In this document: piece after piece, positions 8,652-15,738 of the stretch
Position numbering within the stretch: position 1 is the stretch's first letter
How the letters are laid out: every line of letters starts with the position of its first letter
Source: an uncultured Flavobacteriaceae bacterium
GTDB lineage: Bacteria; Bacteroidota; Bacteroidia; Flavobacteriales; Flavobacteriaceae
Direction of reading: 5' to 3'
Length of the DNA: 49,630 nt
Assembly: GCA_937936275.1 (NCBI GenBank)
Contig: CALHCJ010000041.1
Coordinates: 1 to 49,630, forward strand
Notes under the pieces: generated by a model
What the model was told of the DNA's origin: nothing
The model's database searches: none
What the model saw: only the letters and a program-made list of their open reading frames with translations
Position numbers and translations under genes: made by a program

Positions 8652-9314
8652 ATGACGAAATCAGAAAAAGTAGACTTCGTAATTAGAACCCTAAAAAAGT
8701 TATATCCTACAATACCCGTTCCTTTAGATCATAAAGATCCGTATACCTTATTAATTGCTGTGCTCATGTCTGCCCAAAGTACTGATGTGCGTGTGAACTT
8801 AATTACACCCTTGTTGTTTGCAAAAGCAGACAATCCCTATGATATGATTAAGCTTTCTGTTGAAGAAATTCGCGAGATTATAAAACCAGTAGGTTTATCG
8901 CCAATGAAAGCAAAAGGCATTCACGGTTTATCGAAAATGTTAGTTGAAAAGTATGACGGAATTGTGCCTAGCGAATTAGAGCTTTTAGAAGAATTTCCAG
9001 CGGTGGGTCATAAAACAGCAAGTGTTGTTGTTTCTCAAGCCTTCGGAATACCTGCTTTTCCGGTCGATACGCATATACACAGATTAATGTATCGTTGGGG
9101 TCTCACAAATGGTAAGAATGTAATACAAACCGAAAAAGATGCGAAACGACTATTTCCTAAAGAGTTATGGAATGACTTGCATCTTCAAATCATTTGGTAT
9201 GGTCGTGAATATTCGCCAGCAAGAGGCTGGAATTTAGAAAAAGATATTATAACAAGTACCATTGGAAGAAGAACGGTACTTAATGAATACTATAAAATTA
9301 AAAAGACCCGCTAA
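8652..9314 (+). CDS. nth: Endonuclease III-type DNA glycosylase without Fe-S cluster
   Basis: This HhH-GPD base-excision-repair glycosylase/AP lyase has 220 residues. The catalytic Lys121 is in the helix-hairpin-helix turn AVGHKTA and Asp139 is in PVDTHIHRL, the counterparts of E. coli Lys120 and Asp138; the early helix LMSAQSTD is intact. The family normally ends in a [4Fe-4S] loop C-x6-C-x2-C-x5-C. Here the aligned region reads GREYSPARGW followed by NLEKDIITSTIG and contains no Cys at all. The enzyme should therefore fold without the cluster. The last three codons and the stop lie within the terminator hairpin. Confidence 0.9.
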   Translation: MTKSEKVDFVIRTLKKLYPTIPVPLDHKDPYTLLIAVLMSAQSTDVRVNLITPLLFAKADNPYDMIKLSVEEIREIIKPVGLSPMKAKGIHGLSKMLVEKYDGIVPSELELLEEFPAVGHKTASVVVSQAFGIPAFPVDTHIHRLMYRWGLTNGKNVIQTEKDAKRLFPKELWNDLHLQIIWYGREYSPARGWNLEKDIITSTIGRRTVLNEYYKIKKTR

Positions 9315-9328
9315 TTGCGGGTCTTTTT
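9302..9328. terminator. Terminator containing the nth stop codon
   Basis: AAAGACCCGC and GCGGGTCTTT form a 10-bp stem around the loop TAATT, whose first three bases are the nth stop codon. The T tract touches the stop codon of the minus-strand microprotein gene (9327-9329), so the hairpin probably acts in both directions. Confidence 0.88.
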
Positions 9329-9470
9329 AATTTAAAATGCTTTCGAATTTGAATTCTCGATAGTCTACTACATGTAATGACTTGGAGAAATTGAGCAAAA
9401 ACTGCACGGTTTCTCTACTAGACCTAACAAGATCGCATTCTTCTTGGTGTTCAGAGTAAATTTTTTCCAT
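9327..9470 (-). CDS. 47-aa microprotein downstream of sigma factor 1
   Basis: This short frame encodes 47 residues from ATG (9470-9468) to TAA. It begins MEKIYSEHQEECDLV and ends FESILN. A paralogue of exactly the same length lies at 10540-10683 behind the neighbouring sigma gene. The two share the pattern MEK-YS--Q--C-LV---ET--FLL--SKSL-V------FES-LN, including Cys12. Conservation of reading frame, length and start supports a real protein. It has no membrane helix or signal peptide. It starts 75 bases after the sigma stop codon on the same strand, so co-transcription is likely. A role in controlling the sigma factor is inference only. Confidence 0.72.
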   Translation of the reverse strand: MEKIYSEHQEECDLVRSSRETVQFLLNFSKSLHVVDYREFKFESILN

Positions 9471-9545
9471 ATTTGGTATAGTCTTGTTATGTAAGAATAA
9501 CGCAGCTAATATGGAAATATTGTTTTTACCCTTCTGAACAGAATG

Positions 9546-10127
9546 TTAATTCGTAAGAACGATATTATGTTTTTCTATAATTTTTCTAAGATTTATAAGT
9601 GCATATCGCATTCTACCTAGAGCAGTATTGATGCTTACACCCGTGTTTTCTGAGATTTCTTTAAAACTCATATCCTTGTAGATGCGCATTAAAAGAACTT
9701 CTTTTTGATCGTCTGGTAGTTCTTCAATTAAGTGTTTTAAATCAGAATCTATTTGATTTTTGATAATTTGTTTTTCAGCGTTTAACTTATCATCGCCAAT
9801 TACAGAGAAGATGTTAAAATCATCATTGCCTTCAAATTTTGGCATTCTTTTGTTTTTTCTAAAATGATCAATGATCAAGTTGTGTGCGATACGCATAACC
9901 CAGGGTAAAAATTTACCTTCCTCGCTATACGTACCTTTCTTCAAAGTTTTTATCACCTTAATAAAAGTATCTTGAAAAATATCTTCTGTAATATCTCTAT
10001 CTAAAACTTTAGAATAGATAAAGCTGGTAATACGTTGATTGTGTCTGTTGATTAAAACTTCTAAAGACTTCTCATCTCCACTAATGTAATCTCTTACTAA
10101 TACTGAATCTTCAATCTGTTGGGCCAT
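9546..10127 (-). CDS. ECF-type sigma-70 family RNA polymerase sigma factor (copy 1)
   Basis: This sigma factor contains only region 2 (about residues 20-90, with ITEDIFQDTFIKVIKTL and the DNA-melting helix PWVMRIAHNLIIDHFRK) and region 4 (about 130-185, with the helix-turn-helix MSFKEISENTGVSINTALGRMRYAL). That is the ECF layout. From the ATG at 10127 it has 193 residues. An in-frame ATG at 10187 would add 20 residues, but the corresponding bases before the paralogue are out of frame, so the shorter start is preferred. No anti-sigma gene with a membrane helix is adjacent; only the 47-aa gene follows. It is very similar to the copy at 10759-11343, including the identical end NIVLTN. Confidence 0.88.
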   Translation of the reverse strand: MAQQIEDSVLVRDYISGDEKSLEVLINRHNQRITSFIYSKVLDRDITEDIFQDTFIKVIKTLKKGTYSEEGKFLPWVMRIAHNLIIDHFRKNKRMPKFEGNDDFNIFSVIGDDKLNAEKQIIKNQIDSDLKHLIEELPDDQKEVLLMRIYKDMSFKEISENTGVSINTALGRMRYALINLRKIIEKHNIVLTN

Positions 10128-10187
10128 GTTAGTAGGTTTTTTAGTTAAGGTTTGGGACTTTCTGTTCGAAAGGTTTTGCTGGGTCAT
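10128..10187 (-). repeat. Leader block of sigma 1, homologous to sigma 2 leader
   Basis: The 60 bases before the sigma 1 start resemble those before sigma 2 (11344-11405). Both begin ATGACCCA, share a CCTTTCG/CCTTTTCG and CAGAA core and GTCCC, and end in a TTAAC/TTTAAC plus A-run. In this copy the block is open in the sigma frame; in the other it is not. Confidence 0.55.
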
Positions 10188-10486
10188 TAGTTATTTTTTT
10201 TGAGTTAAATCTAAATCTTGGTTTTTTACCTTGATTTTCAATTATGACCTAAAACTATATATAACGGGGCTATAGAAAAAAAACTTGTTGTCAAACCCTC
10301 GGTTTTTGATGTGAAAAGCTACTTTTCTATTTTTCTACAAAATAAATCGCATTGTAAGGCGTTGTTCGGTTTGCAATTTTGAATTGGCATTCGTCGATAA
10401 TTTTTAACACTTTATCGAGAGATCCTTTTTTGTGCGGAAAATTTCAATTTCATATTTTCACTACCAGACACCAATTAATAGAATAG
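10188..10486. other. Upstream region of sigma 1 with no gene
   Basis: About 300 bases between the sigma 1 leader and the terminator of the second cassette hold no plausible coding frame and no clean TTG/TAnnTTTG promoter on the minus strand. The best partial match is TAGTTTTA near 10253-10260. A short interrupted palindrome (CAAACC, three bases, GGTTTTTG) near 10292-10310 could be an operator. The sigma 1 promoter presumably lies here. Confidence 0.4.
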
Positions 10487-10521
10487 AAAAGCCCCAACAA
10501 TAAAAATTGTTGGGGCTTTTT
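10487..10521 (-). terminator. Terminator ending the second sigma cassette
   Basis: AAAAGCCCCAACAAT pairs with ATTGTTGGGGCTTTT around a short A-rich loop. It lies just after the minus-strand microprotein at 10540 and separates the two sigma cassettes transcriptionally. Confidence 0.88.
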
Positions 10522-10539
10522 ATATTAAGATAAATAATT

Positions 10540-10683
10540 TTAGTTCAAATTCGATTCAAACGTCATTCCGTTTGTCTTAGTCACTTTGAGGGACTTTGAA
10601 TAGCTGAGTAGAAAATCAATAGTTTCTGGTTTAGCCTGAACTAGCTTACATTTCTTCTGTTTCTTAGAGTATAATTTTTCCAT
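10540..10683 (-). CDS. 47-aa microprotein downstream of sigma factor 2
   Basis: This paralogue of the 47-aa frame at 9327-9470 starts MEKLYSKKQKKCKLV and ends FESNLN. It keeps the central ETIDFLLSYSKSL block and Cys12 but is more basic in its first fifteen residues. Spacing from the upstream sigma stop is 75 bases, the same as in the first cassette, and the spacer itself shows related sequence just before the start codon. The frame ends shortly before a strong terminator, so the transcript is sigma plus microprotein. I know no domain for it. Confidence 0.72.
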   Translation of the reverse strand: MEKLYSKKQKKCKLVQAKPETIDFLLSYSKSLKVTKTNGMTFESNLN

Positions 10684-10758
10684 ATCAAGGTTTGGTATTG
10701 TTTGGTATGATAACGCTACCGCCTCTCAATATAATAAAATCACTCGACCTACTGTCTA

Positions 10759-11343
10759 TTAATTCGTTAAAACAATGTTATTCTCACTTATGATCTTCCG
10801 AAGATTAATTAAGGCATAGCGCATTCTACCCAGTGCAGTATTTATACTCACTCCAGTATTTTCAGAAATTTCTTTGAAACTCATATCCTTATAGATCCGC
10901 ATTACTAGTACCTCACGTTGGTCTACCGGTAACTCTTCTATGAGAGCGGTCAAGTCACAATCTATCTGATCCTTTATAATTTGCCCTTCAATATTTAATT
11001 TATCATCTCCCATCACTGAAAAAATATTGAAACTATCACCTCCTTTATACATAGGCATCCTTCTATTCTTTCTAAAATGATCAATAATAAGGTTGTGCGC
11101 AATGCGCATGACCCATGGTAAAAACTTACCTTCTTCATTATAGGTACCCTTTTTGAGAGTACGTATTACTTTAATAAAGGTATCTTGAAAAATATCTTCT
11201 GTAATTCCTCTATCGTTGACTTTTGAATAGATAAAACTACTTATACGCTGGTTGTGTCTATTAATAAGACTCGCCAAGGCTCGTTCGTCTCCTTTTATGT
11301 ATCGCTGAATTAAAACGGGATCGTCAATCTGTACTTGTTCCAT
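10759..11343 (-). CDS. ECF-type sigma-70 family RNA polymerase sigma factor (copy 2)
   Basis: This 194-residue sigma factor has regions 2 and 4 only, like copy 1: ITEDIFQDTFIKVIRTL and PWVMRIAHNLIIDHFRK in region 2, MSFKEISENTGVSINTALGRM in region 4. Differences from copy 1 cluster at the N-terminus and in the 2-4 linker (MPMYKGGDS, CDLTALIEELPVDQ), while both DNA-contact helices are almost identical. The two proteins therefore probably read the same promoter set. The ATG at 11343 is chosen over an in-frame GTG at 11352. A full promoter lies at 11463-11490, giving a leader of about 110 bases that contains a short upstream frame. Confidence 0.88.
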   Translation of the reverse strand: MEQVQIDDPVLIQRYIKGDERALASLINRHNQRISSFIYSKVNDRGITEDIFQDTFIKVIRTLKKGTYNEEGKFLPWVMRIAHNLIIDHFRKNRRMPMYKGGDSFNIFSVMGDDKLNIEGQIIKDQIDCDLTALIEELPVDQREVLVMRIYKDMSFKEISENTGVSINTALGRMRYALINLRKIISENNIVLTN

Positions 11344-11405
11344 AACTATCACTTTTTTGGTTAAACTTAGGGACCAGTTCTGGGCGAAAAGGTCTTGTGG
11401 GTCAT
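11344..11405 (-). repeat. Leader block of sigma 2 with a 12-codon upstream ORF
   Basis: This is the counterpart of 10128-10187. The first ATG (11405-11403) opens a frame MTHKTFSPRTGP that stops at 11367, and it is out of frame with the sigma gene. The block is downstream of the promoter at 11463-11490 and so is transcribed. Confidence 0.55.
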
Positions 11406-11462
11406 TCTTCCAGTTGTAAAAAGTAATATTGCGTTATAGGCTATTTGACGTTTAAGTGAGTT

Positions 11463-11490
11463 CAAATATAGATAAAATTATGTACTTCAA
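11463..11490 (-). promoter_or_regulatory. Promoter of sigma 2, TTG-N17-TATATTTG
   Basis: On the minus strand, TTG (11490-11488), a 17-base spacer and TATATTTG (11470-11463) match the Bacteroidota consensus exactly. Transcription should begin near 11458. Confidence 0.65.
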
Positions 11491-11561
11491 AAAAAAATCT
11501 CTTATCAATGGTCTTTTTTATCGCAATCAAAGCAAGACTAGTAATTAGAAAACACATATTG

Positions 11562-11569
11562 TATCTTTG
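11562..11569 (+). promoter_or_regulatory. -7 element of uvrA
   Basis: TATCTTTG ends eight bases before the ATG at 11578. It overlaps the in-frame GTG at 11569, which therefore cannot be the start. No TTG was found at the proper upstream distance. Confidence 0.45.
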
Positions 11570-11577
11570 TGCTCCAA

Positions 11578-14367
11578 ATGAAAAAGATGCCCGATTTATT
11601 AGACATCAATCCTAAAGAAAATATTATCATAAAGGGTGCAAAACTGCACAATTTAAAAAATATTGATGTGGTCATTCCAAGAAATAAACTCGTTGTAATT
11701 ACTGGTTTATCAGGTTCTGGTAAATCAAGCTTGGCCTTTGACACCCTCTATGCAGAGGGGCAAAGAAGATATGTAGAAAGTCTTTCATCGTACGCGAGAC
11801 AGTTTTTGGGTAAGCTAGACAAACCTAAAGTTGATTACATAAAAGGTATTGCACCGGCAATTGCTATTGAGCAAAAGGTAAATTCTACCAATCCTCGATC
11901 GACGGTGGGCACGACTACGGAAATATATGATTATCTAAAGTTACTCTTCGCTAGAGTGGGTAGAACAATATCTCCTGTGTCTGGCAAGGAAGTAAAAAAG
12001 AATACGGTTAGCGATGTTGTCAATTTTGTAAAGAGCTATAAGGTCGGAACAAAACTATTATTGCTTGCTCCTATTCAAATTAAAGAAGATAGAGACAGCT
12101 TAAAATCGTTACAATTATTTTCCAAACAAGGTTATGCTAGAATAAAATACAAGGGAAAAGTGCTGCGAATAGATGCGGCACCCAAAGATATTGGCAAAGC
12201 ATTTGACCTCGTGGTGGATAGAGTTATCACAAAAGACGATGAAGATTTTTATAATCGCCTTGCCAATGCTATTGACACCGCATATTTCGAAGGACAAGGG
12301 GAATGTGTAATAGAAGAACTGGACACTCAAAAACAAACCTTGTTCAGCAATAAGTTTGAATTAGATGGCATGTCTTTTTTAGAACCTAACGTTCATCTGT
12401 TTAGTTTTAATAACCCTTATGGTGCTTGTCCTAAATGTGAAGGTTATGGAGATGTTATTGGTATCGACGAAGACTTAGTAATTCCAAATACCGCTTTATC
12501 GATATATGAAAATGCCGTATTTGCTTGGCGTGGTGAAAGTATGGGTTGGTATAGAGATCAATTGGTAAATTCTGCTTACAAGTTTGATTTTCCAATTCAT
12601 AAACCATGGTTCGAACTATCAGAAGAACAAAAACAATTGGTTTGGGATGGAAATGATCATTTTATAGGCATTCATAAGTTTTTTACGCAATTAGAGGAAA
12701 AGAGCTATAAAATTCAAAACCGGGTGATGCTTTCTCGCTATCGAGGTAAAACACGTTGCAATGCTTGTAAAGGAAAGCGATTACGCACTGAAACTAAATA
12801 TGTGAAGGTAGATGGGAAGTCAATTTCTGACTTGGTCGAACTTTCGATAAAAAAGTTGATCCTTTTCTTTAAGAATATTCAATTAAGCGAGCATGACCAT
12901 ACGATAGCTTCAAGATTACTCAAAGAGATTAATACACGTTTGGGTTTTTTAGAAAATGTTGGTTTGAGTTATCTCACACTAAATCGCAAATCAAATACTT
13001 TATCTGGTGGAGAAAGCCAACGTATTAATTTAGCCACATCATTAGGTAGTAGCTTAGTTGGTTCTATGTATATTTTAGATGAGCCAAGTATTGGCCTGCA
13101 CCCGAAGGATACAGAAAACTTGGTTGAAGTTTTAAAATCGCTTCGAGATCTAGGAAATACGGTAATTGTTGTTGAGCATGATGAGGATATCATGAAAGCT
13201 GCAGACGAAGTTATTGACATTGGCCCTGAAGCTGGCACTCATGGTGGTCATGTTGTTGCGCACGGCACGCTGGATGAAGTCTTGCTCTCGTCTTCATTAA
13301 CTGCAAGCTACTTAAACGGAACTGAAGTAATTGAAATCCCAGAAAGCCGTAGAACTTCAACTTCATTTATAACGATTAAAGGGGCTCGCGAAAATAATCT
13401 GAAAAATATCGATGTAACCTTCCCTTTAAATATGTTGACTGTAATAACAGGGGTTTCAGGTAGTGGTAAAAGTACTCTAGTGAAAAAACTCTTGTACCCT
13501 ATAGTTCTAAAAGAAGTTGGTGGCTACGGACAAAAATCAGGACAATACACCTCTTTTGAAGGAAAATTTAAAGATATTAAACATGTAGAGTTCGTAGATC
13601 AAAACCCTATTGGTCGGTCTTCACGATCCAATCCTGTTACATATATAAAGGCCTACGACGATATTCGTAGTTTGTTCGCATCTCAAAAACTCAGCAAAAT
13701 AAGAGCGTATCAAGCAAAACATTTTTCATTTAATGTAGATGGCGGTCGCTGTGAGAAGTGTAAAGGAGAAGGTCAAATTACCGTAGAAATGCAATTTATG
13801 GCCGATGTTCACCTAGAGTGTGATACTTGTAGTGGTAAGCGCTTTAAGAAAGAGGTATTAGAGGTCAAATTCGAGGGCGTTAATATTGATAATGTTTTAA
13901 ATATGACTATCGATGATGCTATAGCTTTCTTTGAAACGCATTCACAAACAAAATTGGTCACCAAGTTAAAACCCTTGCAAGATGTAGGTTTGGGCTATGT
14001 TACCTTGGGCCAGTCTTCTTCTACCCTATCAGGTGGTGAAGCACAACGGATAAAGTTAGCATCTTTTCTTATCAAGGGTAATTCAAAGGACAAAGCATTA
14101 TTTATTTTTGATGAACCTACCACGGGACTCCATTTTCATGATATTAAAAAATTGTTAAAATCTTTCAATGCTTTAATATCTCGTGGACACTCCATTGTGG
14201 TTATTGAACATAATATTGAACTCATTAAATGTGCGGACCACATTATAGATCTTGGACCTGAGGGTGGTGAAAATGGAGGTCAACTTTTAGCTTATGGAAC
14301 TCCCGAAGAAATAATTACCAGTAATTCTTCAGAAACTGCTAAATATCTAAGAGAAAAACTACTCTAG
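11578..14367 (+). CDS. uvrA: UvrABC system protein A
   Basis: This is the damage-recognition ATPase of nucleotide excision repair, 929 residues from the ATG at 11578; the ATG at 11587 is also possible. Two ABC modules are complete: Walker A GLSGSGKSS near residue 45 and GVSGSGKST near 630, each with LSGGE signatures and Walker B (ILDEPS, IFDEPTTG). The C-terminal zinc module is complete (CEKC and CDTC). The N-terminal zinc module has only the second Cys pair (GACPKC near 284); the usual first pair is replaced by a Cys-free stretch. It is recognisably the Bacteroidota UvrA type with the N-terminus MPDLLDINPKENIIIKGAK. As I recall, these genomes often carry a second UvrA, so it may be one of two. 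Confidence 0.93.
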   Translation: MKKMPDLLDINPKENIIIKGAKLHNLKNIDVVIPRNKLVVITGLSGSGKSSLAFDTLYAEGQRRYVESLSSYARQFLGKLDKPKVDYIKGIAPAIAIEQKVNSTNPRSTVGTTTEIYDYLKLLFARVGRTISPVSGKEVKKNTVSDVVNFVKSYKVGTKLLLLAPIQIKEDRDSLKSLQLFSKQGYARIKYKGKVLRIDAAPKDIGKAFDLVVDRVITKDDEDFYNRLANAIDTAYFEGQGECVIEELDTQKQTLFSNKFELDGMSFLEPNVHLFSFNNPYGACPKCEGYGDVIGIDEDLVIPNTALSIYENAVFAWRGESMGWYRDQLVNSAYKFDFPIHKPWFELSEEQKQLVWDGNDHFIGIHKFFTQLEEKSYKIQNRVMLSRYRGKTRCNACKGKRLRTETKYVKVDGKSISDLVELSIKKLILFFKNIQLSEHDHTIASRLLKEINTRLGFLENVGLSYLTLNRKSNTLSGGESQRINLATSLGSSLVGSMYILDEPSIGLHPKDTENLVEVLKSLRDLGNTVIVVEHDEDIMKAADEVIDIGPEAGTHGGHVVAHGTLDEVLLSSSLTASYLNGTEVIEIPESRRTSTSFITIKGARENNLKNIDVTFPLNMLTVITGVSGSGKSTLVKKLLYPIVLKEVGGYGQKSGQYTSFEGKFKDIKHVEFVDQNPIGRSSRSNPVTYIKAYDDIRSLFASQKLSKIRAYQAKHFSFNVDGGRCEKCKGEGQITVEMQFMADVHLECDTCSGKRFKKEVLEVKFEGVNIDNVLNMTIDDAIAFFETHSQTKLVTKLKPLQDVGLGYVTLGQSSSTLSGGEAQRIKLASFLIKGNSKDKALFIFDEPTTGLHFHDIKKLLKSFNALISRGHSIVVIEHNIELIKCADHIIDLGPEGGENGGQLLAYGTPEEIITSNSSETAKYLREKLL

Positions 14368-14526: not shown

Positions 14527-15738
14527 ATGAAAAAATTCGTACTACTTTTTACAGCACTTATTTTCGGTACCTCAGGTATCATGGCTAGTACAGCTGATGA
14601 TAAGGTTGCAGAACGCAATGCTTATCGTAACAACAACAGATCTTTTATTTTTGTTGAAAACGGCATTACGTTTTCAGTTTATCCCGACGGAGAATTTGAT
14701 TTTTACGTTGACAACAGAATTGGAAATCGTAGAAGAAATGTCACCTTCAATTCTGGTTTTGATTATAGCCCATATGCTCAATATGATGATTATGGTGCGG
14801 TAATTCAGGTGGAAAACGTACCTATATTTTATGACTATTATGGTCGCGTCTCACAAGTTGGTGATATCAATATTAACTACCGTAATCGTAGAGTATATTC
14901 TGTAGGAAATATGTTTGTTTACTATAACAATAACGGATTCTACGATTATCATACTGGTTATATTAATAGTTTCAATAGATTCTACGTATACAGACCGTTT
15001 CATAGATTCTTTGCAAGACCAGCTTTAGGTTTCTGTTTTGTCAACACTAGACCTTATAGAAGGTTTTACAGTCCGATTCGTTATACATTTTACAACCCGT
15101 ATAGATATAACAATAGAAGAACATTTGCCAAAATAGGTCGTGAGCATCGATACAACCGGGTGCGTAGAGAACGTTCTACAATATATAGAAACGACAAGAG
15201 AGTTGCAGTACGTGACAATGCTCGAAGAAGCAACAGAAATGTAGCACGTGCTAATACGTCAAGCAGATCAAACAGAACTGCAACGCGGAGTACTGATAAT
15301 CGTGCGAATCGAACTGCGACAAGAACAAATCGTTCTGTGACGAGATCCGATGGAAGAACTACTACCGTTCGTAGCAGTAATTATAAAAAAGGTAACGCGA
15401 CAAATAGTAGAACTGTAGTGAAACGTACGCCCCGAAGCACCACCGTTAAAAGGAGTACTTCTACAGTACGACAGCCTTTGTCTCGAAACAGTAATAATCG
15501 AACAGTGCGCAGCACGACAAATAGGTCACAGCGTTCGGTTGCAAAGCCTACCCAACGAACTTCGAGAAGTACAGCAAGTAGAAGTACGTCTTCTAGATCG
15601 GTTCGAAAAGCTCCAGCAAGAAGCTCGAGAAGTACTGTAAGTAGAAGTTCTTCTAAAAGATCGGTTCTAAAAGCACCGACAAGAAGTTCAAGAAGTAATA
15701 GAAGTGCCACTACCTCAAGAAGCAGAGGACGGCAGTAG
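14527..15738 (+). CDS. Secreted protein with Arg/Ser/Thr-rich basic tail
   Basis: This 403-residue protein has a signal peptide (residues 1-20, cleavage after IMA). Residues 30-190 are Tyr/Asn/Phe-rich and contain repeated short beta-like segments (FYDYYGRVSQVGDININY, VYSVGNMFVYYNNNGF). From about 190 to the end the sequence is low-complexity Arg, Ser, Thr and Asn with no acidic clusters, giving an extremely basic tail. Two adjacent 21-residue copies close the tail. The tail may bind DNA, polysaccharide or an acidic surface polymer in the periplasm or outside; this is inference. I do not recognise the family. Confidence 0.75.
   Translation: MKKFVLLFTALIFGTSGIMASTADDKVAERNAYRNNNRSFIFVENGITFSVYPDGEFDFYVDNRIGNRRRNVTFNSGFDYSPYAQYDDYGAVIQVENVPIFYDYYGRVSQVGDININYRNRRVYSVGNMFVYYNNNGFYDYHTGYINSFNRFYVYRPFHRFFARPALGFCFVNTRPYRRFYSPIRYTFYNPYRYNNRRTFAKIGREHRYNRVRRERSTIYRNDKRVAVRDNARRSNRNVARANTSSRSNRTATRSTDNRANRTATRTNRSVTRSDGRTTTVRSSNYKKGNATNSRTVVKRTPRSTTVKRSTSTVRQPLSRNSNNRTVRSTTNRSQRSVAKPTQRTSRSTASRSTSSRSVRKAPARSSRSTVSRSSSKRSVLKAPTRSSRSNRSATTSRSRGRQ
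15568..15693 (+). repeat. Two tandem 63-bp units in the basic tail
   Basis: Units 15568-15630 and 15631-15693 each encode 21 residues with the shared pattern ST-SRS-S-RSV-KAP-RSSR. They diverge at synonymous and a few replacement sites, so the duplication is not recent. Confidence 0.8.

Follow-up and report, generated by a model that had tools for sequence, protein, structure and literature searches.

A conserved 47-residue protein encoded behind an ECF sigma factor of Bacteroidia, probably a reduced anti-sigma factor, and a leader RNA predicted to cover the sigma start codon

The 49,630-nucleotide (nt) stretch analysed here (the window; positions 1 to 49,630 of contig CALHCJ010000041.1, assembly GCA_937936275.1, from an uncultured Flavobacteriaceae bacterium) carries two tandem cassettes, each consisting of a gene for an extracytoplasmic function (ECF) sigma factor followed by a frame of 47 amino acids (aa), here called micro. 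All four frames lie on the minus strand. The first cassette comprises sigma2 (10759-11343, 194 aa; Pfam Sigma70_r2 at 5.4e-15 and Sigma70_r4_2 at 3.5e-11), a type 2 copy with a leader that lies beside uvrA, and micro2 (10540-10683). The second comprises sigma1 (9546-10187; Sigma70_r2 at 3e-14), a type 1 copy without leader, and micro1 (9327-9470); both micro products are predicted to be mini anti-sigma-like proteins. The sigma2 coordinates count from an ATG, and its frame in the list of open reading frames begins at a GTG (11352). For sigma1, the second Met is suggested as the true start (9546-10127, 193 aa), because the orthologues are 193-194 aa long. With Sigma70_r2 and Sigma70_r4_2 domains in about 190 aa, both proteins have the hallmarks of ECF sigma factors. 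They are 82% identical, and the two micro proteins share 51% identity, including the start MEK[IL]YS, Cys12 and the block ET[VI]xFLLx[FY]SKSL. Exactly 75 nt separate the sigma stop from the micro ATG in both cassettes. A sequence-only reading of this DNA had described two ECF-like sigma genes, each followed at this distance by a 47-aa frame, and positions, strands and gaps are borne out, as are the shared length, start, Cys12 and central block of the micro proteins. It had also reported no adjacent membrane anti-sigma gene, and indeed the neighbours are bcp, nth (endonuclease III; 8652-9314, plus strand, convergent; TIGR01083 at 5.6e-59, slightly under its cut-off) and uvrA (11569-14367, plus strand, divergent from sigma2; TIGR00630), with no other anti-sigma gene next to the cassettes.

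The micro frame belongs to a widespread family. A search with micro1 found matches in 242 of 299 family genomes (E <= 0.01), one with a 31-row alignment (A1) in 106 of 246 order genomes, and one with a more diverse alignment (A2) in 151 of 345 class genomes. The same A2 search over the phylum matched 37 of 247 genomes, all 37 within the class, a count for which the number of the 247 lying outside the class is not stated. The 80 named Flavobacteriaceae loci fetched with sigma2 (the best 80 out of 543 confirmed stretches, including Maribacter, Zobellia, Arenibacter, Muricauda, Leeuwenhoekiella and Polaribacter) contain 122 sigma copies. A micro frame follows 121 of them; a pattern recognized 119 of these frames, and the other two (copy 2 of L176, and L193) were read directly from the sequence. 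Conversely, when loci were picked from micro matches, a sigma gene lay just upstream in 20/20 order loci and was adjacent in 26/37 class loci. A UvrA-like neighbour is present at 78 of the 80 Flavobacteriaceae loci and at 32 of 41 class loci. The median ratio of nonsynonymous to synonymous substitution rates (dN/dS) of micro is 0.085 over 23 disjoint unsaturated pairs, which denotes purifying selection. Both the search for homologous frames behind orthologous sigma genes and the dN/dS estimate had been proposed as checks in the sequence-only reading, and both came out in favour of a functional frame. A chance frame was excluded by the 242/299 matching genomes, the 121/122 linkage and the dN/dS of 0.085. 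By these sequence criteria micro is a real protein, and its linkage, purifying selection and co-duplication with the sigma gene lend good support to a role as dedicated partner of its sigma factor, as had been supposed.

Among 123 Flavobacteriaceae copies (the 121 from the loci and the two of the window), 112 are 47 aa long and all 123 end in Asn (codons 9330-9332 and 10543-10545 in the window). The gap between sigma and micro is not fixed in the family (median 72 nt, range 51-115). Cys12 is kept in just 51 of the 112 copies of 47 aa; the part of the earlier proposal that made micro a soluble anti-sigma with a redox-sensitive Cys is therefore abandoned as far as the Cys is concerned, while its anti-sigma part gains from a graded homology to anti-sigma-like proteins in the same slot of other Bacteroidia, described below. 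A membrane-type hydrophobic stretch is absent from the 47-aa proteins, judged by eye. AlphaFold2 models micro1 as one helix (19-31) followed by a hairpin (32-37/40-45), with a mean predicted local distance difference test score of 83. No match at E <= 1 was found for the micro proteins in Pfam and NCBIfam, and no convincing one among PDB sequences (best E 0.8, to an unrelated protein). Literature searches in a set of open-licence papers, judged by title and the start of the abstract, gave nothing on the sigma-microprotein pair or its leader, in agreement with the statement that no such family had been described.

The sigma factor itself matches 178 of 198 class Bacteroidia genomes (E <= 1e-30), with one match per genome except in the genome of the window and one other. 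The copy without leader, sigma1, is probably a later tandem duplicate of the leader-bearing gene. Comparison of the two types over the window and 42 two-copy loci gave four sigma columns that tell type 1 and type 2 apart at the chosen cut-off. Two of these (42 and 45) stand just before what we take to be the region 2.2 motif. In micro, two columns distinguish the types, both in the hairpin. The pattern is suggestive only. Upstream of sigma1 lies a direct repeat, TTTCACATCA-N11-TTTGACAACA (10286-10316, minus strand; 21 bp register). It is found in 37/42 type 1 copies of two-copy loci, in 0/42 type 2 copies and in 1/37 single-copy loci, and is likely an operator of the duplicated copy, gained with the duplication.

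Type 2 sigma genes carry a different upstream pattern, GCCTATA-N4-10-TTACTTTT, with AAAAAGTAAxxxTATGG next to the start codon. In the window this corresponds to a leader RNA (11335-11444, minus strand) identified by a covariance model, covariation and permutation tests, whose 5' arm GCCTATAACGCAATATTACTTTT (11419-11441) is predicted to pair with the translation start AAAAAAGTGATAGTTATGG (11340-11358), covering the AUG. Unguided RNAalifold on 34 Flavobacteriaceae leaders gave a 9-bp stem with double changes at three pairs. When the start-codon helix was added, 94.3% of cells were paired versus 89.4% in shuffled sets (standard deviation 0.7), and the covariation score was 0.133 versus 0.051; none of 500 shuffles was as high for either measure, and slid versions paired at just 35-52%. 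Among 36 hand-chosen class leaders, own arms paired at -15.5 kcal/mol versus -9.0 when permuted (0/20,000 as low), and the probability of base pairing between the AUG and the first 30 nt averaged 0.86 (range 0.35-1.0). The element had been placed by pairing energy before this test, and the cleaner one chooses sites by motif alone: 70 of 100 class sigma loci passed, with own pairing at -12.7 versus -8.2 when permuted (0/20,000 as low); shuffling the 3' arm gave -6.5, and a control stretch taken upstream gave -6.7. The motif was trained on 35 of the hand-chosen leaders, some test genomes overlap, and the two permutation sets overlap as well. Taken as a pattern of sequence change, the covarying pairing with the translation start makes this a putative cis-regulatory leader that occludes the start codon. 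In three loci (L068, L103 and L092) the pairing extends into early sigma codons, for example TTGTAACAT with ATGTTACAA in L068, and therefore coding sequence and leader covary there.

Reading the conserved block before the sigma2 gene as a DNA element, such as a promoter or an operator, instead of an RNA switch is in our view very unlikely to be right. Parts of GCCTATAG and TAC are kept even where unpaired, as expected of sequence recognition beyond pairing, and 30 of the 100 class loci fall under the motif threshold. However, the covariation of the start-region pairing withstood the permutations of the two overlapping sets and the shuffles of the third, slid versions pair poorly, and in the Flavobacteriaceae leaders inspected the block lies downstream of a TAnnTTTG-like box. 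For an RNA leader, the conservation of unpaired bases points to a recognized ligand rather than heat alone as the putative opening signal.

The covariance model (R1) has a single match at E <= 1 in the genome of the window (11335-11444, E 2e-12). Of 13 same-genus relatives, 12 have a match with E no higher than 2.1e-7, and the thirteenth genome is 57% complete; overall, 21 of 39 genomes match at E <= 1, with extra or lone weak matches at E 0.07-0.9. All eight fetched matches lie immediately before the first gene of a sigma pair. This model replaced the bare leader pattern, which was dropped as a genome-wide marker: it gave one match in the genome of the window versus none for a backwards control, and 16 matches (in 15 genomes) versus 24 for the backwards control over 119 order genomes. 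Unguided RNAalifold found no structure in a diverse leader set (A3), because MAFFT did not align the arms by pairing, and an Rfam scan of 9200-11700 gave no family at its gathering score.

Just upstream of the leader, TATATTTG (11463-11470, minus strand), read by sequence, is a predicted promoter that fits TAnnTTTG, the -7 box consensus of the Bacteroidota primary sigma factor as given in part of PMC9723704. An intrinsic terminator with a 15-pair stem and a T run (10487-10520, minus strand) lies right behind micro2; three such terminator-like sites were found in the stretch versus 1.2 expected. Because of this terminator directly after micro2, sigma2 and micro2 probably form a transcription unit of their own.

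Longer proteins occupy the same slot in other Bacteroidia. In 89 class loci (29 of the best 30, plus 60 picked for family diversity), the partner within 420 nt behind the sigma gene is a short form in 44 and a 68-95-aa anti-sigma-like protein in 17. A protein search with L214, matching 18 of 198 genomes, revealed proteins of about 173-195 aa (L217, L218, L222 and L226) that combine an N-terminal domain and the final helix with a hydrophobic stretch, judged membrane-spanning by eye; the L217, L218 and L222 proteins were scanned and have no Pfam match. The genes for these membrane anti-sigma-like proteins (L214/L217, L218, L222, L226) lie directly behind the corresponding sigma gene and overlap it in L217 and L218. 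The long forms typically show a [ND]D-[LIV]-[LIV]-R-[FY]-x-Y-x-E start together with two more helix-like blocks, a Pro and a final helix. The short forms, as aligned in A5, retain this final helix and the opening residues (M-x-K-x-[FY]-[TS]-like) without the middle, and lengths decrease stepwise to 47 aa through the intermediates L102, L112, L236, L240, L242 and L263. Profile comparison with hhalign of 12 long forms (A6) to the micro family gave a probability of 89 and an E of 2.1e-6 over 29 columns, where A6 takes in the bridging L102 and the E counts this single comparison; with the Flavobacteriaceae-only A1 the probability is 74. One of five long forms scanned matches an NCBIfam 'anti-sigma factor' model (E 1.9e-4), short of the curated cut-off. 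In a sigma tree of 115 rows with unfixed root, all long forms (24 soluble and five membrane-like, two of these from one genome) fall within one 46-row group (support 92/97), which also takes in five short and 12 partnerless rows. A long-to-short direction, that is reduction, appears likelier from these comparisons. Since micro aligns only to the first residues and the last helix of the long forms, it probably represents an anti-sigma of which only a helix binding the sigma2 domain and a beta-hairpin are left.

That micro is instead a conserved, co-transcribed protein of other origin, with a look-alike helix and a role elsewhere (e.g. as protease adaptor or at the ribosome), seems improbable to us. 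The similarity is confined to about 29 columns, and linkage to sigma is not absolute: among the 11 class loci picked from micro matches that lack an adjacent sigma gene, the small frame lies beside nth in six (L091, L097, L098, L102, L113 and L118), two of which also have bcp beside it (L097 and L102), while one of the others has different neighbours (L094) and in four the frame was not recovered. A sigma gene was found in 12/12 genomes checked, including the six nth-linked ones, where it lies away from the small frame. The intermediate lengths, however, bridge the gap between short and long forms, and both share the MxKx[FY][TS]-like N-terminal tip and the same slot behind the corresponding sigma gene. 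Near L102 and L113, inspection by eye also showed a recA-like frame.

Passages of PMC7406223 on class I anti-sigmas describe helices 1-3 as gripping the sigma4 domain and helix 4 as lying on regions 2.1-2.2 of the sigma2 domain, the surface for the beta' clamp helices. Like RseA, ChrR, RskA and RsiW, which carry the class I anti-sigma domain (ASDI), micro is encoded beside an ECF sigma factor (121/122 copies) and may have its final helix in the position of helix 4, aligned at the hhalign probability of 89 with long forms that are themselves unmatched to solved ASDIs; its long relatives share the four-block layout, some with a hydrophobic stretch that looks transmembrane by eye. Unlike them, it lacks helices 1-3 and such a stretch, measures 47 aa in total and carries in addition a C-terminal hairpin and an invariant final Asn. 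Because the N-terminal three-helix bundle for the sigma4 domain is absent (one helix and a hairpin in 47 aa, the block missing in A5), micro is not filed as an ASDI member.

We moderately favour a model in which sigma2 is doubly held, its translation locked by the leader and its product capped by a mini anti-sigma keeping helix 4 only. Each cassette would encode an ECF sigma factor and a dedicated soluble partner, a stripped-down class I anti-sigma that would have lost the three-helix bundle gripping the sigma4 domain. The putative remnant comprises the N-terminal tip MEKIYS, an equivalent of helix 4 (P-x-x-x-T-[IV]-x-F-[LI]-L-x-[FY]-S-K-S) and the C-terminal beta-hairpin with its final Asn. 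If it behaves like helix 4 of class I anti-sigmas, the micro helix would lie on regions 2.1-2.2 of the sigma2 domain and compete with the clamp helices of RNA polymerase, keeping free sigma off the core. As a second lock on the sigma2 gene, the 5' arm of the leader on the start codon region would stop translation until opened. Micro has its own start about 75 nt past the sigma stop, so that a locked mRNA may yield micro and an open one an excess of sigma. In place of a leader, sigma1 has the conserved direct-repeat site upstream. Conservation, coding selection, linkage, the covarying leader structure and the graded similarity to anti-sigma-like proteins are observations. We infer that micro may bind and inhibit sigma and that the sigma:micro ratio may act as a switch, with some signal that would open the leader.

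Several points weigh against this model. One Flavobacteriaceae locus (L190) lacks the micro frame, and 28 of the 89 class loci have no partner within 420 nt of the sigma gene. The link between micro and the long forms spans just the 29 or so columns, and the long forms have no Pfam domain and nothing convincing among PDB sequences and solved structures (best E 0.18, to an unrelated protein). The sigma tree leaves the root unfixed, so that the direction of length change is unproven. An AlphaFold2 model of a fused sigma-linker-micro chain reached a predicted template modelling score of 0.49 and is readable for the local fold only. On the side of the leader, the bare pattern was outnumbered by its backwards control over the 119 order genomes, and the 30 class loci under the motif threshold, among which is the leaderless sigma1 of the window, belong here too.

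A positive role, in which micro stabilizes sigma or accompanies it onto RNA polymerase as a subunit for specificity or loading, is in our view rather unlikely, yet some features would suit it. Losing the helices that grip the sigma4 domain could turn an inhibitor into a non-blocking binder, and the hairpin and the final Asn are absent from nearly all long forms, suggesting a new contact: among class copies, Asn is last in 39/39 that fit the micro profile best but in 3/22 that fit the long profile best, the 89-aa L102 having both hairpin and Asn. There is also a precedent for partner-dependent sigma stability in Porphyromonas gingivalis SigP (193 aa), described in part of PMC4800418 as lacking without PorX, a likeness by description. 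Against a positive partner, the long relatives in the same slot look like anti-sigmas, and what micro retains is the helix that, in the known anti-sigmas treated in that portion of PMC7406223, covers the polymerase-binding surface.

Other small or co-encoded partners of ECF sigma factors resemble micro in part. The class II anti-sigma CnrY also has a very short sigma-binding part, and its last helix binds the sigma2 domain as helix 4 of ASDI does, according to a section of PMC7406223. CnrY has two helices, one of them on the sigma4 domain, whereas a single helix plus hairpin is predicted for micro. NepR is small and its fold consists of two helices. As sketched in excerpts of the literature, this protein of the alphaproteobacterial general stress response is an anti-sigma that, as micro is, is encoded beside an ECF sigma factor, in a system where paralogues are frequent; unlike NepR, which is part of the PhyR partner switch, the micro cassettes have bcp, nth and uvrA next to them. 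In EcfO-Reo of Bacteroides/Phocaeicola, which belong to the same bacterial class, the ECF sigma factor and its partner are likewise encoded together. Reo, however, spans all five compartments in the account excerpted from PMC13114119, unlike the 47-aa soluble micro peptide, and homology to Reo was ruled out by size and layout. SigP of P. gingivalis, in the PorXY cascade, is a 193-aa ECF sigma factor likened here by description and not by sequence; one homologue is reported in F. johnsoniae in part of PMC10951265, and the word anti-sigma does not occur in the main text of PMC8265659, PMC4800418 and PMC5607195.

The leader RNA and the anti-sigma ancestry are additions to the sequence-only reading. 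More tentatively, and with less than balanced confidence, the arrangement may extend to a class-wide Bacteroidia module: a near-universal, mostly single-copy ECF sigma factor under two locks, a leader and a one-helix anti-sigma derived by deletion of the half that holds the sigma4 domain. Statistics in PMC7406223, seen as excerpts, give a class I anti-sigma neighbour for 6% of Bacteroidetes ECFs versus 32% over all phyla, and list the Bacteroidetes group ECF03 without a conserved neighbour of this class. If our reading is true, short unannotated frames would be worn-down anti-sigmas, and part of this Bacteroidetes gap would be an annotation artefact, which is testable. It would also explain how a widespread sigma factor without obvious inhibitor is controlled, by an anti-sigma cut down to a single helix capping the sigma2 domain, and the reduction series would amount to a natural experiment that tells which half of such a protein suffices to control sigma. 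The leader, for its part, would act as a so far unrecorded switch of translation for a sigma gene matched in 178/198 class genomes (motif in 70/100 loci). Finally, a long frame on the plus strand downstream of uvrA (14527-15738) has a low-complexity C-terminal half rich in Arg, Ser and Thr.

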